Part shown: positions 24,028 to 38,146 of the stretch, one piece after another
How the letters are laid out: each line of letters opens with the position of its first letter
Position numbering within the stretch: position 1 is the first letter of the stretch
NCBI RefSeq assembly: GCF_028712165.1
Contig: NZ_JAQTQR010000012.1
Coordinates: 1 to 46,984, forward strand
DNA length: 46,984 nt
DNA from: Sulfuricurvum sp.
GTDB lineage: Bacteria; Campylobacterota; Campylobacteria; Campylobacterales; Sulfurimonadaceae
Direction: 5' to 3'
Position numbers and translations under genes: made by a program
The notes under the pieces: model-generated
The model's input: the letters and a program-made list of their open reading frames with translations, nothing else
Told to the model about the DNA's origin: nothing
The model's database searches: none

Positions 24028-24837
24028 CTATTCCCCTATGATAAATGAGCCTTTAAAATAGCCCTGTGAAATGAAATCGCGTGCTTCGGCTTCCGATTTA
24101 AATCCGCTTAGCCATACACGAAATAGTCGTTTGTTATTATACTCTGTATCTTTAATGATTGCAGAGTAGCTATGAAAAGAAGCGTACTTCTGTTTTGTAT
24201 AGGATGCCCCGGCAAATCGTTCAAATGAACCGATCTGCACATAAAAATTGTTCATGACACTCTCTTGCGGGCCTTTGGCTATTGTCTGCATATTAATGCT
24301 TCGTGATGATGAGGGTTCAAATCCTAATACTTCCAATGTTACGTTTGCCGTCCCTTTTTGAGCAACACCGATTTGTTGTGCCGCCGCGTAAGAGAGATCA
24401 ATGATTCGACTCTCTACAAAAGGACCTCGATCATTGATACGGACAATCGTTTGGCTGTTGTTGTCGGTATTGGTTACCCGTACAACAGTATTCATCGGCA
24501 AAGTTTTATGCGCCGCAGTCATAGCGTACATATCATACCCCTCTCCGCTGGAGGTGGATTTGCCGTGAAAATCGTTTCCGTACCAGCTCGCTCTCCCGCT
24601 AAAAGTATCTCCGACCCGAACAACGGTTGGACAGTACTCTTTTCCAAAAACGGTGTAAGGACGCATCGTCGCATGAAGTTCACCGTTGGCTTTATAGACA
24701 TTGGATGAGTTCATTGCCAACTGTTCAGATGGGTATTTTTGAGAAGGTTTCGGTGAATGATAGGAATAAGACCCGTATCGGGTCGTACACCCTCCGAATA
24801 TAAGTATTAGAGTGATAGCAAGGGTTTTAATCAGCAA
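24028..24837 (-). CDS. rlpA: RlpA septal lipoprotein / lytic transglycosylase with SPOR domain
   Basis: Outer-membrane lipoprotein of 269 residues that cuts denuded glycan strands. Signal peptide and lipobox FGGC put the lipid on Cys17. A double-psi beta-barrel follows (about 82-175) with GRASWYGNDFHGKSTSSGE, MTAAHKTLPMNT and INDRGPFVESRIIDLS, including the catalytic Glu/Asp positions. The C-terminal SPOR domain (about 195-268, starting NNFYVQIGSF) binds denuded septal peptidoglycan. TTG start at 24837 lies 7 bp after GGAG and overlaps mltD by 11 bp. Confidence 0.92.
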   Translation of the reverse strand: MLIKTLAITLILIFGGCTTRYGSYSYHSPKPSQKYPSEQLAMNSSNVYKANGELHATMRPYTVFGKEYCPTVVRVGDTFSGRASWYGNDFHGKSTSSGEGYDMYAMTAAHKTLPMNTVVRVTNTDNNSQTIVRINDRGPFVESRIIDLSYAAAQQIGVAQKGTANVTLEVLGFEPSSSRSINMQTIAKGPQESVMNNFYVQIGSFERFAGASYTKQKYASFHSYSAIIKDTEYNNKRLFRVWLSGFKSEAEARDFISQGYFKGSFIIGE

Positions 24838-26038
24838 CCTTTATCTCCTCCCCTTCTTTTAATACATTGGACGCAAACGGATTTTTAAGTTTTAACTGTT
24901 CAAGCGTCGTATTATACAATGCAGCGACTGAAGCGAGGGTTTCACCGGATTTTGCGGTATAGAGACGGGGGTTCTTCAAAAACGGTTTGGTAATCGGTAT
25001 TTTCACACGTCGATTGAGATTACGACCTTCATTATCTCCTATCATATTCTCCATCATAATCGAGTTTTTAGGAACGTTGTAACGTTTGGAGATTTGATCT
25101 AACGTTTCACCCGACTTTACACGATGCATAATAAAATAACCATGGATATCTTTCGGCTGAAATTTTTGCCGGAATTCCTCTAATTTTTCTCTAGGAATGT
25201 ACACAGGGTAGTTTTGTTGATTCGGAGGTGTTATCCCCTTTTTAAGATGGGTATTAAGACTGATAAGTTTTGTTTTAGGCATCTCTAAAACTGCGGCGAT
25301 TCTGTCAATTTGCTCCCCTTTGGGAAGATAAATAGTGGCAATAGGGTTTTCAACCGCGTCCTGTGTCGATGTGTATTGAGATAAATACGGATCCTCAGAG
25401 CCCAAAAAAGCCAATGAAACGACGGTACGAATATAATTTCTGCTCTCTCGCGGGAGATACGCATGTTTTGGATCCGCCAATATATTCAAATCAGTAGTCC
25501 CTGCTTTCCGAATGGCCCTAGTTAAGCGGCCATCACCGCAATTATAAGCGATCAAAGCCAAGTACCATTTACCGAACTGTTTTTTTAAACTGCTCAAGTA
25601 TGTAATTGCGGCACGTGTCGATTTTATATGGTCACGGCGTTCATCAACATACTGATTTACCCGTAGTCCCTGAAGTTTCCCCGTTGTCTCCATAAACTGC
25701 CATAATCCGGCTGCTCCGTGTGAAGAGGTACTGTCAACATCCAACTGCGATTCTGCCAATACGACAAATAAAAACTCATTCGGCAAATCAGATTGAGCGA
25801 TAAGAGAGGAGAGCATCGGTAGAAGCAAGTTTGCATTTTCAGAGGTATCATCAAACCCTTGCAGGCTTGAATCACGTTTTTTTTGTGTATAAACATCGTG
25901 TAAAGAAGGATCTTTCAAAAAAGAAGCGGGAATATCAAAATGACGTAATATCTCTATTTTACTTTTGTCATTCGGATCAAATCCTACACCCATAAGTATT
26001 AAAGGGATCAAAAATAATATCGCGATTATATTTCTCAT
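24827..26038 (-). CDS. mltD: Membrane-bound lytic transglycosylase MltD-like, two LysM domains
   Basis: A 403-residue periplasmic peptidoglycan-cleaving enzyme. Signal peptide 1-18; no lipobox Cys is visible, unlike E. coli MltD. The catalytic domain has Glu96 in AESQLD, then SSHGAAGLWQFM and LALIAYNCGDGRL. Two LysM glycan-binding repeats lie at about 300-345 and 358-401. It precedes rlpA with an 11-bp overlap, so two different wall-cutting enzymes are made together. Confidence 0.9.
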   Translation of the reverse strand: MRNIIAILFLIPLILMGVGFDPNDKSKIEILRHFDIPASFLKDPSLHDVYTQKKRDSSLQGFDDTSENANLLLPMLSSLIAQSDLPNEFLFVVLAESQLDVDSTSSHGAAGLWQFMETTGKLQGLRVNQYVDERRDHIKSTRAAITYLSSLKKQFGKWYLALIAYNCGDGRLTRAIRKAGTTDLNILADPKHAYLPRESRNYIRTVVSLAFLGSEDPYLSQYTSTQDAVENPIATIYLPKGEQIDRIAAVLEMPKTKLISLNTHLKKGITPPNQQNYPVYIPREKLEEFRQKFQPKDIHGYFIMHRVKSGETLDQISKRYNVPKNSIMMENMIGDNEGRNLNRRVKIPITKPFLKNPRLYTAKSGETLASVAALYNTTLEQLKLKNPFASNVLKEGEEIKVAD

Positions 26039-26053
26039 CCCGATTACCTCACC

Positions 26054-26830
26054 CTATCCAAAAGCAAACAGCTTTTTGGCATTGTGTGTTGTTATTTCTT
26101 CTACCTCTTGTGCATTCATATGGAGTAAATCAGCCATTTTGTCAGCAACGTAACGGGTATATGCACTCTCATTACGAGAACCCCTGTGAGGATGAGGGGT
26201 GAGATAGGGGCCATCTGTTTCAATTACAAGTTTATCGAGGGGAATTTTAGGGAGAATATTGACCAGTTTTTTAGCATTTTGAAATGTAACGACTCCGCCG
26301 ATACCGAAGTAAAAACCTTCATTGGCGAGGGATAGCAGCTCATCATCGGCATTGTAACAGTGCAACACTCCGCCGACTTCTCCGGCACCTTCTTCGAGTA
26401 ATATCATTTTTGAATCATGGCTTGCATCTCGGATATGGACGATTAACGGCTTATGATATTGTTTGGCAACACGAATCTGATGACGAAAGACTTCAGCTTG
26501 ACGCATCTTCTCCTGATGTTTCTCTTCATCGCTCCCTTCAAGTCGAAAATAGTCCAGTCCGCATTCTCCGATAGCTACACATTTTGGATGGGCAGCATAA
26601 TGGTCAAAATCCACCGAATCAATCGTTTCCATATCATACGGATGAACACCAACGGCAAAATAAACATTTTCATACGCTTCGCATATCTCAATCGCACGCT
26701 CCAGTGTCGAAGGATGTGCACCCGGGATTACATATCCCTCAACACCTGCATCGGATGCACGTTTCATCATTGCATCAAAATCTTCGCGGTAGCGTTCATC
26801 GTCTAAATGGACATGGGTATCAATAATCAT
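26054..26830 (-). CDS. tatD: TatD family metal-dependent hydrolase/DNase
   Basis: TIM-barrel hydrolase of 258 residues. The metal-site motifs are DTHVHLDDE at the start, AIGECGLDYFR near 88, KPLIVHIRDA near 130, LHCYN near 155 and ETDGPYLTPHPHRGSRNE near 202. It follows the recN stop as TGATG, with AGAGGA 5 bp before the ATG. The GTG one codon earlier is a less likely start. TatD proteins have 3'-5' exonuclease activity in E. coli and are linked to DNA repair, consistent with recN upstream. Confidence 0.9.
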   Translation of the reverse strand: MIIDTHVHLDDERYREDFDAMMKRASDAGVEGYVIPGAHPSTLERAIEICEAYENVYFAVGVHPYDMETIDSVDFDHYAAHPKCVAIGECGLDYFRLEGSDEEKHQEKMRQAEVFRHQIRVAKQYHKPLIVHIRDASHDSKMILLEEGAGEVGGVLHCYNADDELLSLANEGFYFGIGGVVTFQNAKKLVNILPKIPLDKLVIETDGPYLTPHPHRGSRNESAYTRYVADKMADLLHMNAQEVEEITTHNAKKLFAFG

Positions 26831-28368
26831 CACAATCCTCTTGCACGTTCAAATAAATCTCTGGCAAATCCTCGTGCCTCATCACTCACACTTTCACCGC
26901 TGATAATTCGAGCAATCTCTTCTACCCGTTCATTATCGTTTAGCTCTCGAACACGACTTTCATCGTCTTTATAGATTAAAAAATGCTGCTGTCCCATCGA
27001 AGTCAGTTGCGGCTGATGCGAAATAACGAAAATCTGATAGCGGGAAGAGAGATGACGCAGTACTTTGGCAACACTCATCGACTCTTCTCCGCTTAGATTT
27101 GCATCGATCTCATCAAGCATCAGAACACCACCGCCGCTTTGCATACTCTCGACCCCTAATGCCAGCAAAGCAAGACGAAGGCGGTTAAACTCACCGGAGC
27201 TCAGCTTATCGAGCTTTGTCCCCGATAAACCCAATACCGCTTTATCGTATCCTGTTGCATTTAATTCGCACGCTTCAAGTTCCAATGTTGCTTCACGAAG
27301 GTAGAGCATCCCCAAATAACTGTTGAGTTTTTCCAGCGTTTCACCCAAAATGGCATGACGTTTTAACGATAGCTCTTTCGCTCCCGTATCGAGTGTCGCT
27401 TTTAGTGAGGAGATTTGTTTTATTAAATCGTTTTTAGAGTGCTCAATCGTTTCATAGGATTCAAGTTCTGATGCTTTTTGGTCGCGATAGGCTAACGCTT
27501 CTTCAATACTGCCGTATCGACGTTTCAATTCGGATATCTGCTCGATTCGGTCCAATACCGATTCGACCGAAACCTCTTCGAGCTCTTCCATACGTTCCAA
27601 TGAACTTTCTAAAACACTGCGCAGTTCATTCATCGTATCATCAAAAAATGCACTGTCAATCTCTAATAATCCCAATACCGAACTGACATTCGACTCGTAA
27701 GAAAATATCCCCTGTGCCTGTGCGATCGCCGTTTCGATTTTCTCTTTTTTAGAGAGCTGTTTTTTGATGAGATTTAGCTCTTCATCTTCTCCGATACGAG
27801 GTTTGATCGCATCAATTTTGCCGATTTCATAAAGGGCAAACTCTTTAAGTTCCGCAAGATGTTTTTCTTTCTCTTCAATGCTGCGGAGCTCATCTGACAG
27901 GATTTTAAATTCTGAAAATTTGGAACGATGATTCTCTAAAATCGTAGCATATTGGGGAGTTCGTTCACTGATACGTTCATCGATAATTTTTAAGATTGCA
28001 GACGGTTCAAAATCACTGTAATCTTTGAGACTTAAATGGCGCAGATAAGTAGAACTGATCGATTCCATAGAAGACTTTGAGGTACTTTGGTTATTGATAA
28101 AATAACGGGTTTTCTCTTTTTTAACATGGCGGAATATATTTACAGGCTCATTTTGAAGACCGTAATACTCTTCATCAATTTTCCATGATACACTTGATTC
28201 ACAAATCTGTGCTTCGACATTGTCCAAACCTACAGAGGCTAAAATGGAACGCATAAGGATCGATTTTCCGCTTCCGCTGGGTCCCGTAAAAACAACAAGC
28301 CCGGGATGAAACTCCAAATCAGCCTCTTTAAACGTCAAAAACTCTTTAAGATAAAAACGTTCTATCAC
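26830..28368 (-). CDS. recN: DNA repair protein RecN-like SMC ATPase
   Basis: A 512-residue SMC-like protein for double-strand-break repair. Walker A GPSGSGKS lies at 29-36, a coiled coil spans roughly 140-340, and KLSSGEFNRLRLALL is the ABC signature. Walker B is GVLMLDEIDANLSGEE, followed by VISHQPQL. The start is GTG at 28368, 3 bp after nadK, with no clear ribosome site, so it is probably coupled to nadK. Slightly shorter than E. coli RecN (553). The recN-nadK pairing also occurs in Helicobacter. Confidence 0.88.
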   Translation of the reverse strand: MIERFYLKEFLTFKEADLEFHPGLVVFTGPSGSGKSILMRSILASVGLDNVEAQICESSVSWKIDEEYYGLQNEPVNIFRHVKKEKTRYFINNQSTSKSSMESISSTYLRHLSLKDYSDFEPSAILKIIDERISERTPQYATILENHRSKFSEFKILSDELRSIEEKEKHLAELKEFALYEIGKIDAIKPRIGEDEELNLIKKQLSKKEKIETAIAQAQGIFSYESNVSSVLGLLEIDSAFFDDTMNELRSVLESSLERMEELEEVSVESVLDRIEQISELKRRYGSIEEALAYRDQKASELESYETIEHSKNDLIKQISSLKATLDTGAKELSLKRHAILGETLEKLNSYLGMLYLREATLELEACELNATGYDKAVLGLSGTKLDKLSSGEFNRLRLALLALGVESMQSGGGVLMLDEIDANLSGEESMSVAKVLRHLSSRYQIFVISHQPQLTSMGQQHFLIYKDDESRVRELNDNERVEEIARIISGESVSDEARGFARDLFERARGL

Positions 28369-29295: not shown

Positions 29296-30165
29296 TTAAC
29301 GGAAATATTCCAGTGCTATCCCCTCACGCAATCCGTCATCGATAATTATCGCTTCCTCATATCCAAGTGCCTCATAAATAGCCGTTACCATCATAATACC
29401 TGCTATGATCAGGCTTTCGCGTCCTACTCCGACATACCGGGCGCGCATTGTCTCATCCATATTCAAAAGTTCATTCCGTACACGGTAGCAATCCTCCAAA
29501 TGCAAACGAAATCCGTTTACTTTTTCAGGATCATACGTCTCATAATCCATCCCGTTCAAATATGCCGCAATCGTTGTCGGAGTTCCAGCCGTTAAAACTA
29601 AAGATGTATGAGGGAATGATTGAGAGCAGATTTGTTCCTTAAACGATTCGATTGAGTCACTAAGTTTTTGGGGAGTATTGGATCGCTCGCTCAGGGTAAC
29701 AATACCAATATTAAGACTTATGGAACGGCTTGTTTCACCTTCAGATACGATCAATTCAGTCGATCCGCCCCCTATATCCGCCATTACAAAGGATGAAGGC
29801 TCAATGTCGAGTTTCTTCAGTCGATACCGTACGGCATTTAAAGAAAGATTTGCTTCTTTTTCCGCATCGATGATTGTAAAGCGGACACCGGTTTCAGCTG
29901 CTATGGCTTCAATAATGGAATCTGAATTTGTAGCCATACGCATCGCGGCAGTAGCATACCCTCTAACATCATTAGAGGCAAAATCAAGCTTGGTTTTTGC
30001 CTCATTGATTGCAGATATAATCCGTCCGAGTGCTTTTTCACCGATTTGTTTGGTATCATGAAGAGATTCCGCAGTTTTAACAATTTTCTCAAAACTTCTG
30101 CCCCAGAGTTGACCGTCAAACTCGATGAAACGAATGGTATTGGAACCTAAATCAATGGCTATCAT
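29296..30165 (-). CDS. ppx: Ppx/GppA family phosphatase (short form)
   Basis: Cytoplasmic ASKHA-fold enzyme of 289 residues, expected to degrade polyphosphate and/or pppGpp. The first phosphate loop is IDLGSNTIRF near residue 4. The second is ADIGGGSTELIV near 140, followed by LTAGTPTTIAAYL near 205. Only the catalytic two-domain core is present; the C-terminal HD-like half of E. coli Ppx is absent, as is usual in Campylobacterota. ATG overlaps the WD40 gene stop by 4 bp. Confidence 0.88.
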   Translation of the reverse strand: MIAIDLGSNTIRFIEFDGQLWGRSFEKIVKTAESLHDTKQIGEKALGRIISAINEAKTKLDFASNDVRGYATAAMRMATNSDSIIEAIAAETGVRFTIIDAEKEANLSLNAVRYRLKKLDIEPSSFVMADIGGGSTELIVSEGETSRSISLNIGIVTLSERSNTPQKLSDSIESFKEQICSQSFPHTSLVLTAGTPTTIAAYLNGMDYETYDPEKVNGFRLHLEDCYRVRNELLNMDETMRARYVGVGRESLIIAGIMMVTAIYEALGYEEAIIIDDGLREGIALEYFR

Positions 30166-32288
30166 AACTCAGAAATATCGTCGATCCGTATCGATGGACT
30201 CCATGTGTCCAGGGATCCTTTCTTAAGAACTTCAAAATCTAGTTTGGTTTGATAACGGGCTTTAAAATACTCAAAAACCGTCGTAATCCCCTCATCTACT
30301 CCAAATAATCCGACATATTGTCGAATGCCCCGTTCAATAATCTCCTGAGACTCTTTATTTCGAAGCTTTTGTTCCAACTGTACACAATACGCTTGTGCCA
30401 TAACACTGGCTATCGCCGAATATTTGGCATTTATAGCATGGTACGGTTCAAATGTACTAAGCGTTTCACGTGCTAGACCTTTGGCCGCAAACCGCTGTGC
30501 CTGATCGACAATCTTATTCCAATGATTTTCCAGTACCTGTGCTTCGGGGGTCTCGTACAATAACGGGTAAGAACTAAGATATGCGAAAGCGTTATCAAGA
30601 TTATTTGAAGCAATCGAATCGAAAAAGAGATGTTTTACACGAATCGTATCAGCCATCTCCTGGGCTTCTGCTGCATAATCAGGAAAAGCCAACAGAATTT
30701 CGCACGCTTTTCTGGCGGTTGCATATTCACCTTGAACATATCCTTGATGAGCCTGAATATAAAGTTTATCGGCATATTCCATAATCGTGCCGTATTCTGC
30801 AAACTCTTTTAAAAACGGGTGTGCTTTAATCAAATCAAAAAATTTATAAAAATCACGCTGTGCAATGACTCGTTTAAAATAATCATACACTTTTCGCTCT
30901 TGAAACAGCTGTTGAATTAAAATCGTTTTATCTGAAATACCGCGATATGGAGCCAAGAGCTGACGTGCTTGTTCCTCACCATTGGGTGTTGAAATAAGCT
31001 CTTGTGCCTTTAAAAAAAGTTTTTTCCATTTTACTTCCATAGCTCGAAACGGTTCAGAATCTTGGAAAGCAGGATATTGTTTAACCATCGAGTATGCAAG
31101 TGGATATCGTCCTTCAGTAATTGCCGTTTTAAACTGGGGGTATTTTTCAAAATCATGCAGTATCTGAGTAATCATTCCATTTTTTCTTGGAATGCCGGCA
31201 AACATATTCAATAACTCTTTTGCCTTTGTACGTTCATTTTTTTCCAGATAATCACGAACTTTCTCAAGAATATCTGCCCAAATACGTTCTGCAGCATCAT
31301 AAAGTTTTGAATATTGTAACATCGGGTTCTCTTCTACCGCATTATAGAACGATTTATATTGTCGTTCTCGCAGCATCTGCGTATACTTTTCTTCATTCCC
31401 GAAAAGTGAATAAATACGTACGTTACCATCAATAGTACCGATCGCCAAACGAAATGGATCACTCAAAAAAGCCAATGTCGTAATCGATTCGGATTCTTTG
31501 ATATAGCGCTGTTTTATCTGATCAAATGTCCGTAAATCATATAAACCGATATATCCGAGCTTTGTTGCAACAAAAGCAAACCGTTTATCGATACTCACAG
31601 TCATCGTTGTTACATCATCATTCATTTTATTCAGACGTTTAATTATTTTACCGGTACTGAGATCCCATACGATCAATACTCCCTCTTTATCTACAGAGAG
31701 CATTCTTGCTTCCGGCAGAAAAATTATTTTGACAATCGCACTGCCGTGACCTCGAAGTTTTATCGGCTTTTTCATTGTTGCCATATTGAGCACATTGATC
31801 GTTCGGTCATAGCTTCCCGTAGCAATCCATTGTCCAAAATCATCAAATGCAATGGTACTGATAAAATCACTGTGAGGAGGCATGGAGAACGCCAAACGGG
31901 AAGTTTGAAGAACCCACCCGAATGTTTTTCCATCCTGACCGCAGGTTACACAGTAGCGTCCCAACGGATCCAATCCGACACTCTCGATCTCACCTTGATG
32001 ACGTCCCACCTTATACAATAACTCTTTTTTAGAGACATTGAATAAAGCGGCTTTCCCCGTACCGGGGATAATTGTCATAGAATACTCACCGTCCGTCGTC
32101 ATATCAACATGTGAACCTACGATACGCTCATGCGTAATATTGCTTTTAAATCCGCCTACAATTGCATAGGTTTTCAGATCAATTATTCTAAGTGCATTTT
32201 GAGCATCTATGATACCCATTTGCCCGTTTATAAGTGTTTTAAGCATCAGAATAGGTTGTTTAATATTTAATAATTTCAAAACTTCCAT
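30162..32288 (-). CDS. WD40 beta-propeller protein with four ~84-residue helical repeats
   Basis: A 708-residue cytoplasmic protein; no signal peptide or membrane helix is seen. Residues 1-300 are WD40-like blades, for example ISTIAFDDFGQWIATGSYDR and GVLIVWDLSTGKIIKRL, probably one propeller. Residues 307-642 contain four tandem helical repeats: 307-390, 391-475, 476-559 and 560-642. Each has Pro at position 16 and a helix around position 31 (IWADIL, KWKKLF, YADKLY, HWNKIV). A 66-residue tail follows and may hold a partial fifth unit. No enzyme motif is seen, so a scaffold role is the safest guess. It lies between ilvA and ppx and overlaps ppx by 4 bp. I do not recognise the repeat family. 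Confidence 0.85.
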   Translation of the reverse strand: MEVLKLLNIKQPILMLKTLINGQMGIIDAQNALRIIDLKTYAIVGGFKSNITHERIVGSHVDMTTDGEYSMTIIPGTGKAALFNVSKKELLYKVGRHQGEIESVGLDPLGRYCVTCGQDGKTFGWVLQTSRLAFSMPPHSDFISTIAFDDFGQWIATGSYDRTINVLNMATMKKPIKLRGHGSAIVKIIFLPEARMLSVDKEGVLIVWDLSTGKIIKRLNKMNDDVTTMTVSIDKRFAFVATKLGYIGLYDLRTFDQIKQRYIKESESITTLAFLSDPFRLAIGTIDGNVRIYSLFGNEEKYTQMLRERQYKSFYNAVEENPMLQYSKLYDAAERIWADILEKVRDYLEKNERTKAKELLNMFAGIPRKNGMITQILHDFEKYPQFKTAITEGRYPLAYSMVKQYPAFQDSEPFRAMEVKWKKLFLKAQELISTPNGEEQARQLLAPYRGISDKTILIQQLFQERKVYDYFKRVIAQRDFYKFFDLIKAHPFLKEFAEYGTIMEYADKLYIQAHQGYVQGEYATARKACEILLAFPDYAAEAQEMADTIRVKHLFFDSIASNNLDNAFAYLSSYPLLYETPEAQVLENHWNKIVDQAQRFAAKGLARETLSTFEPYHAINAKYSAIASVMAQAYCVQLEQKLRNKESQEIIERGIRQYVGLFGVDEGITTVFEYFKARYQTKLDFEVLKKGSLDTWSPSIRIDDISEL
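30363..31370 (-). repeat. Four tandem 83-85-codon repeats inside the WD40 gene
   Basis: Protein-level tandem repeats at residues 307-390, 391-475, 476-559 and 560-642. They align without gaps over the first 40 positions. Shared columns are Pro16 in all four, Trp31 in three of four, Lys/Asp33, Leu/Ile34 and Ala/Val38. The repeats are diverged, so no obvious DNA-level repeat remains. Confidence 0.65.
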
Positions 32289-32303: not shown

Positions 32304-33515
32304 TTAATGTTCTTCGCTGCTTAAGTAGCGGTGTTCTTTGAGTAGTGCACGAATTTGCGACTGATGCTCTTCTCCTTTTGTTTCCAAATGGATCATCACG
32401 TTGGCGTCGCCGTATGCTAACGTCGTTGAAGTACGATCGTAGTCGATATGGACGATATTGGCATTCAGCCCTTGGAGCATTTCGGTGAGTTTCATAAGGG
32501 CTCCCGGTTTATCAACAAGAGTAACCGTAAGTTTCATCTTTCGTCCCGATTTAATCAAACCTTTTTCGATAATGATGGAGAGGAGTGTAACATCCATATT
32601 CCCTCCGCTGAGTACGACACCAACTTTTTTGCCTTTGAGATCGCTCAATTTATCGTGCAATAATGCTGCTACACCGACGGCACCGGCACCTTCTACAACC
32701 AGTTTTTGACGTTCAAGCAAAAACAATATGGCATTGGCAATCTCTTCGTCATCAACACTGACGATTCGGTCAACGCACTCTATGATATGCCCAAGGGTTA
32801 TTTCAGATGTATCACGTACCGCGATGCCATCTGCGATGGTTCGTACCGACGTACTGTCAATCGCTTTTTTAGCTTCAAATGATTCTTTCATCGCCGGTGC
32901 TCCTAGCGCACTGACTCCGATCACTTCTGTTTTAGGTGATAACGCTTTAAAAGCAGAAGCCATACCGGAAATCAAACCACCGCCACCGACAGGGATAATT
33001 ACGGCATCGAGATCACTCATCGAATCGATCATTTCCAGTGCAATCGTCCCCTGCCCCGCCATCACGGCCGTATCGGTAAAAGGATGGACGAATACCAACC
33101 CGTTCTCGCTGCCGTAGGTAGAGGCATACGCATACGCTTCATCATAATTACTGCCGGCTAAAATAACCTCTGCCCCGTAATAGCGTACCCCGTTGATTTT
33201 CGTCAGCGGAGTCGATTCCGGCATTACAATCAATGCTTTAATCCCAAACATCTGTGCAGCCATAGCAACACCCTGTGCATGATTTCCGGCACTTGCCGCA
33301 ATCACACCGCATACACGTTCTGCATCACTTAACGAAGCAATCTTGTTGTATGCTCCGCGAATTTTGAAAGCTCCGGTAACTTGAAGATTCTCTTTTTTAA
33401 GATAAATTTCCGCTCCGCATTGTTCACTCAATCTGGGAGCGTAGGCAAACGGGGTTTCTACAACCGTTCCGCGGATACGCTCATGCGCTTGATAAATTGT
33501 TTCTAGATCAACCAA
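32304..33515 (-). CDS. ilvA: Threonine ammonia-lyase (threonine deaminase) with ACT domain
   Basis: PLP enzyme of 403 residues converting threonine to 2-oxobutanoate and ammonia, entry to isoleucine synthesis. Lys51 in TGAFKIRGAYN carries PLP. AASAGNHAQGVA near 90 and the glycine loop PVGGGGLISG near 175 bind the cofactor. Residues 328-400 form one ACT domain, likely for allosteric feedback; this short layout is shared by catabolic-type enzymes. It starts with TTG at 33515 behind AAGGGA, 9 bp after the CoA-binding gene. Confidence 0.9.
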   Translation of the reverse strand: MVDLETIYQAHERIRGTVVETPFAYAPRLSEQCGAEIYLKKENLQVTGAFKIRGAYNKIASLSDAERVCGVIAASAGNHAQGVAMAAQMFGIKALIVMPESTPLTKINGVRYYGAEVILAGSNYDEAYAYASTYGSENGLVFVHPFTDTAVMAGQGTIALEMIDSMSDLDAVIIPVGGGGLISGMASAFKALSPKTEVIGVSALGAPAMKESFEAKKAIDSTSVRTIADGIAVRDTSEITLGHIIECVDRIVSVDDEEIANAILFLLERQKLVVEGAGAVGVAALLHDKLSDLKGKKVGVVLSGGNMDVTLLSIIIEKGLIKSGRKMKLTVTLVDKPGALMKLTEMLQGLNANIVHIDYDRTSTTLAYGDANVMIHLETKGEEHQSQIRALLKEHRYLSSEEH

Positions 33516-35533: not shown

Positions 35534-38146
35534 ATGCTTATTGGTACATCAAATCATTTATCACAAACTGAACAATTGCATAACTTGCTAAAGGCGAGTA
35601 AACCGGCTGTTTTAACAAGTTTATTATTGGGTTTGCTGCTGGTTTTTGCCGAAAATAATATTTCAAATCCGAAGATGATTATTATTTGGTACGTAGTCTT
35701 GCTTGCAGTTTCACTCCTTCGGATAAAACTCATTACTTCGTATCAATACAATACCGACACATCTTTAATCACACTAAATAGACATCTGAAAAATCTTCGT
35801 ATCGGTACATTTGCATCCGGAATGGTATGGGGATCAATCGGCGTTTTATTGTTTACAACCAATGACATAATCCATTTGATATTTTTAATTTTTATCTTAG
35901 CCGGTCTGACAGCCGGCAATACGGTATCAAATGCTTCGGATCTTCCTAGCAGCATCGGTTTTTCTATTCTGGCCTTGTTTCCTATTGCACTCTATTTATG
36001 TTTGGACAGAACCGACATATTTATATATATGGGTCTCGCAGTTATGCTCTATTTAGGCCTTCTAATCATAGTTAGTCGATATATGAATACCCATATATCT
36101 CAGAACTATGTTTTGCGGCACAAAGCCGAAGCAAGTGCCAAAGAAGCGCGAATCAGCGAAGAACGTTATCGTATGATTCTTCAATATTCACCGGCAGGAA
36201 TTGTTCATTATAATAAAAATCTAATTATTACCTACTGCAATGACCGATTTGCAGAAGTTATGAAAACCTCTAAAGAGAAGCTTATCGGACTTGATATAAA
36301 GACATTAAAAGATCAAAGATTAACACCTTCATTAAGAGAAGCTATAGAGGGAAAAGAAGGGGTGTATGATGGTGAATACCTTTCAACTCTCAGTAATACT
36401 CAGCTTTGGATTATCATGTCTTATGTACCGATTCGTGATTCTGAGGATATTATTGAGGGTGGGATTGCGATCATCGAAGATATCACTGAACGGAAAATAG
36501 CTGAAAAAGAGACAACAAAACTGATAAATAACCTTAGACAAGCCGAAAAAATATCTCACCTTGGAAATTGGCATTATGACTTGGCCAGTAATGCACTGGA
36601 TTGGTCCGATGAGATTTACAATATTTTTGAGCTTGACAAAGAGAGCTTTGAACCAACCTATGAAGCGTTTTTAAATATTATACACCCGGATGACCGCGAT
36701 ATGGTTGCGCGTGCCTATGAACATTCACTGGAAACAAAACAAAAATATGAAATAACCCATAGACTTCTAATGAAGGACGGGAGAGTAAAATATGTTAATG
36801 AACAATGTGAAACCAAATTTGATCCGAACGGAAAACCTATTTGTTCTTTAGGTACGGTTCAAGATATCACTCAACAGATGCAATACCAAATTCGCTTGGA
36901 AAACAGTGAGAATACACTCAGATATTTACTAAAAATGAGCCCTATCGCCGTCAGAATTGCAAAAAATGATGGTCAAGATGTCATTTTTGCCAATGAGTCT
37001 TATAGCAAACTCATCCATGCGGATATATCTGACGTTTTAGGAAAAAATCCTAAAAACTATTATGCGGATCAAGAACAATATGATGAAATCGTTTCCCAGA
37101 TCAACAACAATGAAATCATTTATAATCGTCTGATAGAACTCTCTATCGAAAATAAAACCATGTGGGTATTGGCTTCTTATATGCCTATTGATTTCGAAGG
37201 TTTCCCTTGTGTATTAGGATGGTTTTATGATATTACGGAAGAAAAAAATCTCCAAAGAGAGGTGGAAGAACAAAGGGATGAGTTTAAAGCCCTTTTCAAT
37301 ACCTCTAAGGATGGTATCGCAATCTTGGATCATGAATCCAATTTCGTAGATTTTAATGACGCATATCTTGAAATGACTGGATTTACACGTTCCGAACTGC
37401 TAAAAACGTCATGCCTTTCGCTCAGTGCACCGGAGGATCAAGAACGTGCCAGACAGGCAATGCAAATTGTGTTTGAATCCGGATATATTAAAGGGTTTGA
37501 AAAAACGTGCATCGTCAAAGACGGAAAAAGACTTTATATCAATATGACAGCCACTCTTTTACCTGACAAAGAGCGAATCTTAATTACTACCAAAGATATC
37601 AGTGCGATGAAAGAACATGCCCGTCAGCTTGAACACTTGGCACACTATGATGCACTTACCGGGCTACCGAATCGTATCTTAGAATCAGACCGTCTGCAAC
37701 AAGGGATGATTCAGACCCAACGGCACGGAAATCATTTGGCAGTGTTTTATCTGGATCTTGACGGCTTCAAACATGTAAACGATAACTATGGGCATAGCGT
37801 CGGAGATCAACTGCTCATAAACCTTTCAGCCCGGATGAAACAGGCATTACGCGAAGGAGACACCCTATCTAGATTAGGCGGAGACGAATTTGTCGCTATT
37901 CTTTCAGATATCAATAATCCGTCTGAAGCAATACCGATTATCCGCAGGCTTCTCGATGCAGCCAGTCGTCCGATCCAGCTCGGTGATTTTATTATTCAAG
38001 TGTCTGCCAGTGTAGGAGTCACCTTTTATCCTCAAGAACATGACGTAGATGGGGATCAGCTTGTCCGACAAGCCGATCAGGCGATGTATGTAGCGAAACA
38101 ATCGGGTAAAAATTGTTACCATGTTTTTGGTTCTGAACACAGTTGA
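35534..38146 (+). CDS. Six-helix membrane sensor diguanylate cyclase with four PAS domains
   Basis: An 870-residue inner-membrane protein. About six hydrophobic helices (25-182) are followed by four PAS-like domains (about 209-325, 335-450, 455-575, 585-695) and a C-terminal GGDEF domain. GGDEF lies at 782-786 in SRLGGDEF, with REGD five residues before it as an intact RxxD inhibitory site. It should therefore make c-di-GMP with product feedback. The second PAS has the GNWHYDL...WSDEIYNIF pattern of PAS_3 and resembles a PAS in the protein at 40180-42909. The bound ligand is not predictable. Confidence 0.9.
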   Translation: MLIGTSNHLSQTEQLHNLLKASKPAVLTSLLLGLLLVFAENNISNPKMIIIWYVVLLAVSLLRIKLITSYQYNTDTSLITLNRHLKNLRIGTFASGMVWGSIGVLLFTTNDIIHLIFLIFILAGLTAGNTVSNASDLPSSIGFSILALFPIALYLCLDRTDIFIYMGLAVMLYLGLLIIVSRYMNTHISQNYVLRHKAEASAKEARISEERYRMILQYSPAGIVHYNKNLIITYCNDRFAEVMKTSKEKLIGLDIKTLKDQRLTPSLREAIEGKEGVYDGEYLSTLSNTQLWIIMSYVPIRDSEDIIEGGIAIIEDITERKIAEKETTKLINNLRQAEKISHLGNWHYDLASNALDWSDEIYNIFELDKESFEPTYEAFLNIIHPDDRDMVARAYEHSLETKQKYEITHRLLMKDGRVKYVNEQCETKFDPNGKPICSLGTVQDITQQMQYQIRLENSENTLRYLLKMSPIAVRIAKNDGQDVIFANESYSKLIHADISDVLGKNPKNYYADQEQYDEIVSQINNNEIIYNRLIELSIENKTMWVLASYMPIDFEGFPCVLGWFYDITEEKNLQREVEEQRDEFKALFNTSKDGIAILDHESNFVDFNDAYLEMTGFTRSELLKTSCLSLSAPEDQERARQAMQIVFESGYIKGFEKTCIVKDGKRLYINMTATLLPDKERILITTKDISAMKEHARQLEHLAHYDALTGLPNRILESDRLQQGMIQTQRHGNHLAVFYLDLDGFKHVNDNYGHSVGDQLLINLSARMKQALREGDTLSRLGGDEFVAILSDINNPSEAIPIIRRLLDAASRPIQLGDFIIQVSASVGVTFYPQEHDVDGDQLVRQADQAMYVAKQSGKNCYHVFGSEHS

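Follow-up and report, generated by a model that had tools for sequence, protein, structure and literature searches.

A WD40-solenoid gene between ilvA and a phosphatase gene

The window, by which we mean the whole 46,984-nucleotide stretch of Sulfuricurvum DNA that was analysed, carries on its reverse strand a single intact open reading frame that begins with ATG and encodes a protein of 708 amino acids. This frame starts 15 bp downstream of ilvA and overlaps the gene for a small phosphatase of the Ppx/GppA family by four bases (ATGA). The genes, and the parts of the 708-residue protein, are as follows.

32304..33515, (-) strand: ilvA, threonine ammonia-lyase, upstream (TIGR01127, E 2.6e-160; adjacency conserved in the window clade)
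30162..32288, (-) strand: gene for the 708-residue WD40 propeller and alpha-solenoid protein (open reading frame; orthologues)
31398..32267, (-) strand: WD40 beta-propeller, residues ~8-297 (Pfam and PDB WD40 matches, 42-residue periodicity, VIA-align)
31119..31370, (-) strand: helical repeat R1, residues 307-390 (profile autocorrelation, AlphaFold helices, hhalign)
30864..31118, (-) strand: helical repeat R2, residues 391-475 (autocorrelation, AlphaFold helices, hhalign, clade comparison)
30612..30863, (-) strand: helical repeat R3, residues 476-559 (AlphaFold helices, structure comparison, hhalign)
30360..30611, (-) strand: helical repeat R4, residues 560-643 (autocorrelation, AlphaFold helices, hhalign)
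30165..30359, (-) strand: C-terminal segment, residues 644-708 (AlphaFold model, hhalign)
29296..30165, (-) strand: small Ppx/GppA-family phosphatase gene (ppx), downstream (PF02541, E 3.6e-33; overlap or adjacency conserved)

Orthologues within the genus are 51-87% identical to the 708-residue protein, and comparison with the two closest of them yields dN/dS (omega) values of 0.04-0.07. The gene is under strong purifying selection and is therefore no decaying passenger. No membrane-spanning stretch is present in the protein (the maximum 19-residue Kyte-Doolittle value is 1.07), which makes the cytoplasmic location proposed in the initial annotation reasonable. A search of the full protein against NCBIfam returned no match.

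Several other genes in the window were recorded. A gene for an MltD-like protein (24827-26038) lies a few genes from the WD40-solenoid gene. The region 26830-28368 encodes a RecN-like protein whose 512 amino acids fall short of the 563 positions of the TIGR00634 model and whose score, 187 of 408 bits, lies under the cut-off of that model. At 35534-38146, divergent from a citrate synthase-like gene, is a gene for an 870-residue protein that carries PAS-like and GGDEF domains and lacks the DWK domain described below.

A beta-propeller followed by four 84-residue helical repeats

The first ~300 residues match many Pfam models for propellers and WD40 proteins (PF00400 scores 59.3 bits, with a cut-off of 27 bits) as well as WD40 chains in the PDB. 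The family profile of this part has a period of 42 residues, with blades starting near residues 52, 95, 137, 178 and 220, and this spacing suggests a propeller of about seven blades. Comparison by VIA-align of residues 185-297 with propellers gives a Z of ~15. The N-terminal part thus combines the profile match with the blade period of ~40 residues that characterizes WD40 propellers, as the initial annotation had it.

The remainder of the protein contains four genuine helical repeats of 84, 85, 84 and 84 residues, which follow each other in tandem from residue 307 to residue 643. Autocorrelation of the helical part of the family profile peaks at offsets of 84, 169 and 253 (z 4.0-5.8), which exceed all other offsets tried. 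Pairwise hhalign comparisons of the repeats return P values from 2e-23 (R1 with R2) to 8.5e-10 (R3 with R4). On the window sequence alone, a register of 40 columns in four repeats scores 179, compared with a maximum of -66 among 60 shuffles, in each of which the same placements were searched. The column pattern reported earlier holds throughout: column 16 is proline in all four repeats (P322, P406, P491 and P575), column 31 is tryptophan in three (W337, W421 and W590), columns 34-35 are hydrophobic, and column 38 is occupied by Val, Ala, Ala and Ala. R2 is the repeat best conserved between the two clades of the family.

When the solenoid was modelled alone with AlphaFold2, the mean pLDDT was 84, and the predicted structure is a repetitive solenoid in which a five-helix block (H10-H5-H22-H11-H24) is present four times. 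Together with the Pfam matches to the propeller, this model bears out the claimed order of propeller and then alpha-solenoid. The alignments supplied to AlphaFold2 had three rows only, comprising the window protein and two relatives. In the whole-protein run on this three-row alignment, the propeller half was poorly modelled, and pTM values of 0.42-0.45 (0.42 for the whole protein) make the relative placement of the domains unreliable. Residues 644-708 are predicted to form two or three helices, followed by a tail of low confidence whose end follows a pattern in the family of the type [L/I]-[P/D]-x-[I/S]-[I/V/L]. With hhalign P values of about 0.1-0.3, this segment does not qualify as a further, fifth copy of the repeat.

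Relationship of the repeat to TPR and other folds

The 84-residue repeat is uncatalogued. Pfam searches of the window solenoid with E-values up to 10 yielded no repeat family, and no Pfam or NCBIfam model was found to cover the repeat, in agreement with the earlier statement that no named repeat fits its length and pattern. Placement in the TPR family and placement in the SEL1 family, either of which would have made the repeat an ordinary one, were both rejected in the same searches, as no profile of either kind matched at E-values up to 10. Among 37 diverse relatives, no Pfam model recurs in more than three members. Sequence searches found no solved homologue of the solenoid, with only two matches, both at E >0.1, and structure comparison listed no whole-length match; none of the listed structures covers the solenoid with a high Z, and the matches are partial, short TPR segments among them.

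Even so, the solenoid resembles TPR solenoids in its antiparallel helical hairpins and local geometry, and there is an even chance that it is composed of paired degenerate TPRs, such that the 84-residue unit is a doubled hairpin and the repeat a subfamily of a known superfamily with no new fold. A half-period signal is present at an offset of 42 (z ~2). Most TPR-like is R3, in which segments of 48-55 residues fit onto TPR chains at 1.2-2.1 A, the spacing follows a G-x-Y-x-x-A...P-like pattern, and comparison with a TPR consensus gives E 0.001; in addition, TPR_14 matches one of the 37 relatives (E 2.7e-4). However, the TPR consensus finds no match in R1, R2 or R4, the superposition Z values lie within the range that is common for helical repeats, and the window protein differs from TPR solenoids in its 84-residue unit, its extra-long helices and its lack of a TPR model match. 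The local TPR-like geometry and the weak TPR_14 match nevertheless favour diverged TPR-type hairpins over an unrelated fold, which suggests that two such hairpins, both very diverged, make up the 84-residue unit and duplicate together as one block.

Two clades of a family widespread in Campylobacterales

The solenoid profile identified the family in 121 of 299 Campylobacterales genomes, representing 38 of 81 genera and often with several copies per genome. Of 60 near relatives, 46 have a member. In a sample of the phylum, 74 of 249 genomes carry it, and all matches listed there bear a same-genus, same-family or same-order label. No plasmid-borne copies were found among 72,556 records. Nearly all members are 690-740 amino acids long and contain both domains. 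Literature searches by title or abstract returned no paper on this WD40-solenoid family or on the DWK domain.

A maximum-likelihood tree of 79 members has two large sides that are separated with an SH-aLRT of 99. One side holds the window protein, all members linked to ilvA, and a group that includes a second copy from the window genome; the other, hereafter the sister clade, holds all DWK-linked members, so that ilvA-linked and signalling-linked genes fall on opposite sides. Identity between the two clades is only ~17-23%, and function may therefore have diverged. Neither link is seen for 34 of 81 non-redundant members.

The second copy in the window genome (L033:6182-8311, on contig 84) is 24% identical to the window protein and has a murein-transglycosylase-like gene beside it. 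That an MltD-like gene likewise lies near the window copy may be coincidence. At another locus (L009), the window-clade gene is duplicated in tandem, with 34 bp between the copies, and each is 61-62% identical to the window protein. One genome (G016; loci L050, L051 and L072) has at least four family members in differing contexts, of which the sister-clade copy at L072 is split or frameshifted (530 amino acids, then a 150-residue remainder in another frame).

The ilvA-WD40-ppx arrangement of the window clade

The gene order ilvA-WD40-ppx is found in Sulfuricurvum and in several other families. The distance from ilvA to the WD40 gene mostly falls within -4 to 18 bp. The WD40 gene overlaps or nearly overlaps ppx in most window-clade loci, frequently through ATGA. 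The most compact example (L079) has the order ilvA-WD40-ppx-ilvB with a four-base overlap at each junction, followed by ilvH and lpxD within 5 bp. In genomes of genus g23, which we take to be Sulfurimonas-type, ppx is missing and the order is ilvA-WD40-ilvB-ilvH-lpxD.

In four genomes that lack the WD40 gene, ilvA and the same small ppx are 8 bp (G003, L118) or 20 bp (G226, G326 and G303; L120-L122) apart. This clean presence/absence polymorphism implies that the WD40 gene is an optional insert in an older ilvA-ppx pair, and that the pair can dispense with it.

Sister-clade genes adjoin signalling genes that share a C-terminal domain

Genes of the sister clade often adjoin signalling genes, including those for histidine kinases, receiver-EAL proteins and PAS proteins. 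Among co-directional neighbours of members without ilvA linkage, 24 of 67 encode signalling proteins, compared with 29 of 264 among genes four or more positions away (Fisher P 6.5e-6). Iterative searches revealed that the immediate receiver (REC) and PAS neighbours share a C-terminal domain of ~120 residues, termed DWK, which begins in a PAS-like manner (I-P..., N, F) and contains a D-W-K motif. No Pfam model matches the domain at E 0.1, and its match to PAS profiles extends over 18 columns only; from these sequence features, the domain is likely a derived PAS fold. Representatives beside sister-clade genes include:

L067:4692-5495
L055:4166-5707
L068:4024-5614
L052:8086-9375
others at further loci

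Because the domain was discovered near family genes, 299 genomes were searched with DWK alone to avoid bias, and the positions of the matches were compared with those of the family. There were 36 matches at E <= 1e-10, and 29 of these, drawn from about ten genera, adjoin a family gene. Of the rest, three are at contig ends, one has a family fragment ~5 kb away, and three have no family gene in sight. The paired genes are usually co-directional and occur in both orders, with one divergent pair (L113). Viewed from the family, 17 of 81 non-redundant members, all in the sister clade, have an adjacent DWK gene. This arrangement, in which diverse input domains precede a constant C-terminal domain that is nearly always encoded beside a constant second protein, would fit a layout in which many inputs lead to a common effector.

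A possible signalling hub

The WD40 propeller and the TPR-like alpha-solenoid of four 84-residue double-hairpin repeats are best explained as the parts of a putative soluble interaction hub. In the sister clade, the partner of the hub would very likely be the DWK domain of the adjacent PAS sensor or response regulator. A signal sensed by PAS, or phosphorylation of the receiver, may alter the DWK domain, which would then dock on the propeller-solenoid hub and let it relay the signal to a further target protein. That the window protein is likewise a soluble protein-binding hub, of a kind docked in the sister clade by sensor or receiver output domains, is a tentative proposal to which we assign somewhat less than an even chance. 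It would be the hub of the other clade, co-translated with ilvA and the small Ppx phosphatase, and would presumably join two proteins, with its partner encoded elsewhere or being Ppx or IlvA. For this protein the model is an analogy drawn from homologues at about 20% identity. Against it, the window genome has no strong DWK match (best E 3e-5), and in the loci examined no window-clade gene lies beside a DWK gene. The low identity between the clades, the 34 of 81 members with neither link, the dispensability of the gene for the ilvA-ppx pair and the unreliable domain placement also count against the hub.

The main rival holds that window-clade proteins are not general signalling hubs and are specific regulators or adaptors of their operon partners; by binding to the small phosphatase of the Ppx/GppA family, or to IlvA, they would link the level of polyphosphate or (p)ppGpp to isoleucine synthesis. 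The tight spacing to ilvA in nearly all window-clade loci, the frequent overlaps with ppx, the chain of four-base overlaps at L079 and the gene order of genus g23 all speak for this reading. However, the Sulfurimonas-type loci keep the WD40 gene though ppx is gone, and ilvA and ppx remain adjacent in the four genomes that lack the WD40 gene, and thus neither the WD40 gene nor its neighbours need the other. Moreover, operon neighbours need not interact. We consider direct partnership with Ppx or IlvA unlikely, as we do the specific regulatory role built on it. The same caution applies to the signalling hub, since adjacency of DWK and WD40-solenoid genes is not equal to binding, and the docking step, the direction of the signal and the extension of the model to window-clade proteins are all conjectural.

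With this reservation, the hub reading can be extended to an undescribed signalling module of Campylobacterales, in which the DWK output of PAS sensors and response regulators docks on a dedicated propeller-solenoid hub, with the window protein serving as hub in a second branch that is wired into amino-acid and Ppx metabolism. This wider proposal is slightly more tentative still. The parts of such a scaffold are familiar, and what is new is the repeat family, the candidate output domain and a candidate partner pair that can be tested.

Comparison with membrane coats and other WD40 proteins

The order of a propeller followed by a solenoid is shared with the eukaryotic proteins of COPI/COPII, IFT and nucleoporins, and the initial annotation had suggested a scaffold on a membrane or large complex. 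Santarella-Mellwig et al. (2010; PMC2799638), who surveyed bacterial proteomes (162 complete, 13 incomplete), reported this architecture in bacteria of the PVC superphylum only and tied it to internal membranes. A propeller N-terminal to stacked helix pairs is the defining order in that work, and it is also the order of the window protein, which could thus be read as a bacterial scaffold like eukaryotic coats and the membrane-coat (MC)-like proteins of PVC bacteria. The observed likeness to the PVC proteins concerns architecture. Those proteins exceed 1000 amino acids, whereas members of the Campylobacterales family have ~700, contain a regular repeat of 84 residues and are encoded near signalling or metabolic genes. 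The window protein has no hydrophobic stretch. Its solenoid has no sequence link to the eukaryotic coats and no listed whole-length structural match: in the structure comparison, no chain of a coat protein or nucleoporin spans the whole solenoid, and the best match (Z 8.6 over 123 residues) is to a designed protein. Matches to Clathrin_H_link (one of 37 relatives, E 0.012) and ELYS (two of 37, E 0.008) are at chance level. We therefore rejected the membrane-coat parallel as unsupported, as neither the sequence nor the neighbourhoods point to membranes, and regard a coat-like function as very improbable. The scaffold-like character of the protein is supported, whereas its proposed tie to a membrane or coat is not; the neighbours belong to isoleucine biosynthesis and Ppx or to two-component and PAS signalling. 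The signalling neighbours of the sister clade likewise point to signalling, not to a membrane coat. The wide occurrence of this architecture among ordinary Gram-negative bacteria of a single order, with several copies in a genome and no sign of membranes, makes architecture alone a weaker marker of membrane coats.

Another parallel is offered by prokaryotic WD40 proteins from Cyanobacteria, Planctomycetes and Actinobacteria, such as PkwA, which also combine a propeller with an association to kinase or signalling genes (PMC5587647, PMC6113231). In the portions of these sources available to us, the links to signalling are mainly to Ser/Thr kinases (for Cyanobacteria and Planctomycetes, PMC5587647), and no such solenoid is described. 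The sister clade differs in that one clade of a propeller-solenoid family is tightly linked, at the gene level, to both one-component and two-component signalling, and its members pair with PAS and receiver proteins via a distinct C-terminal domain.
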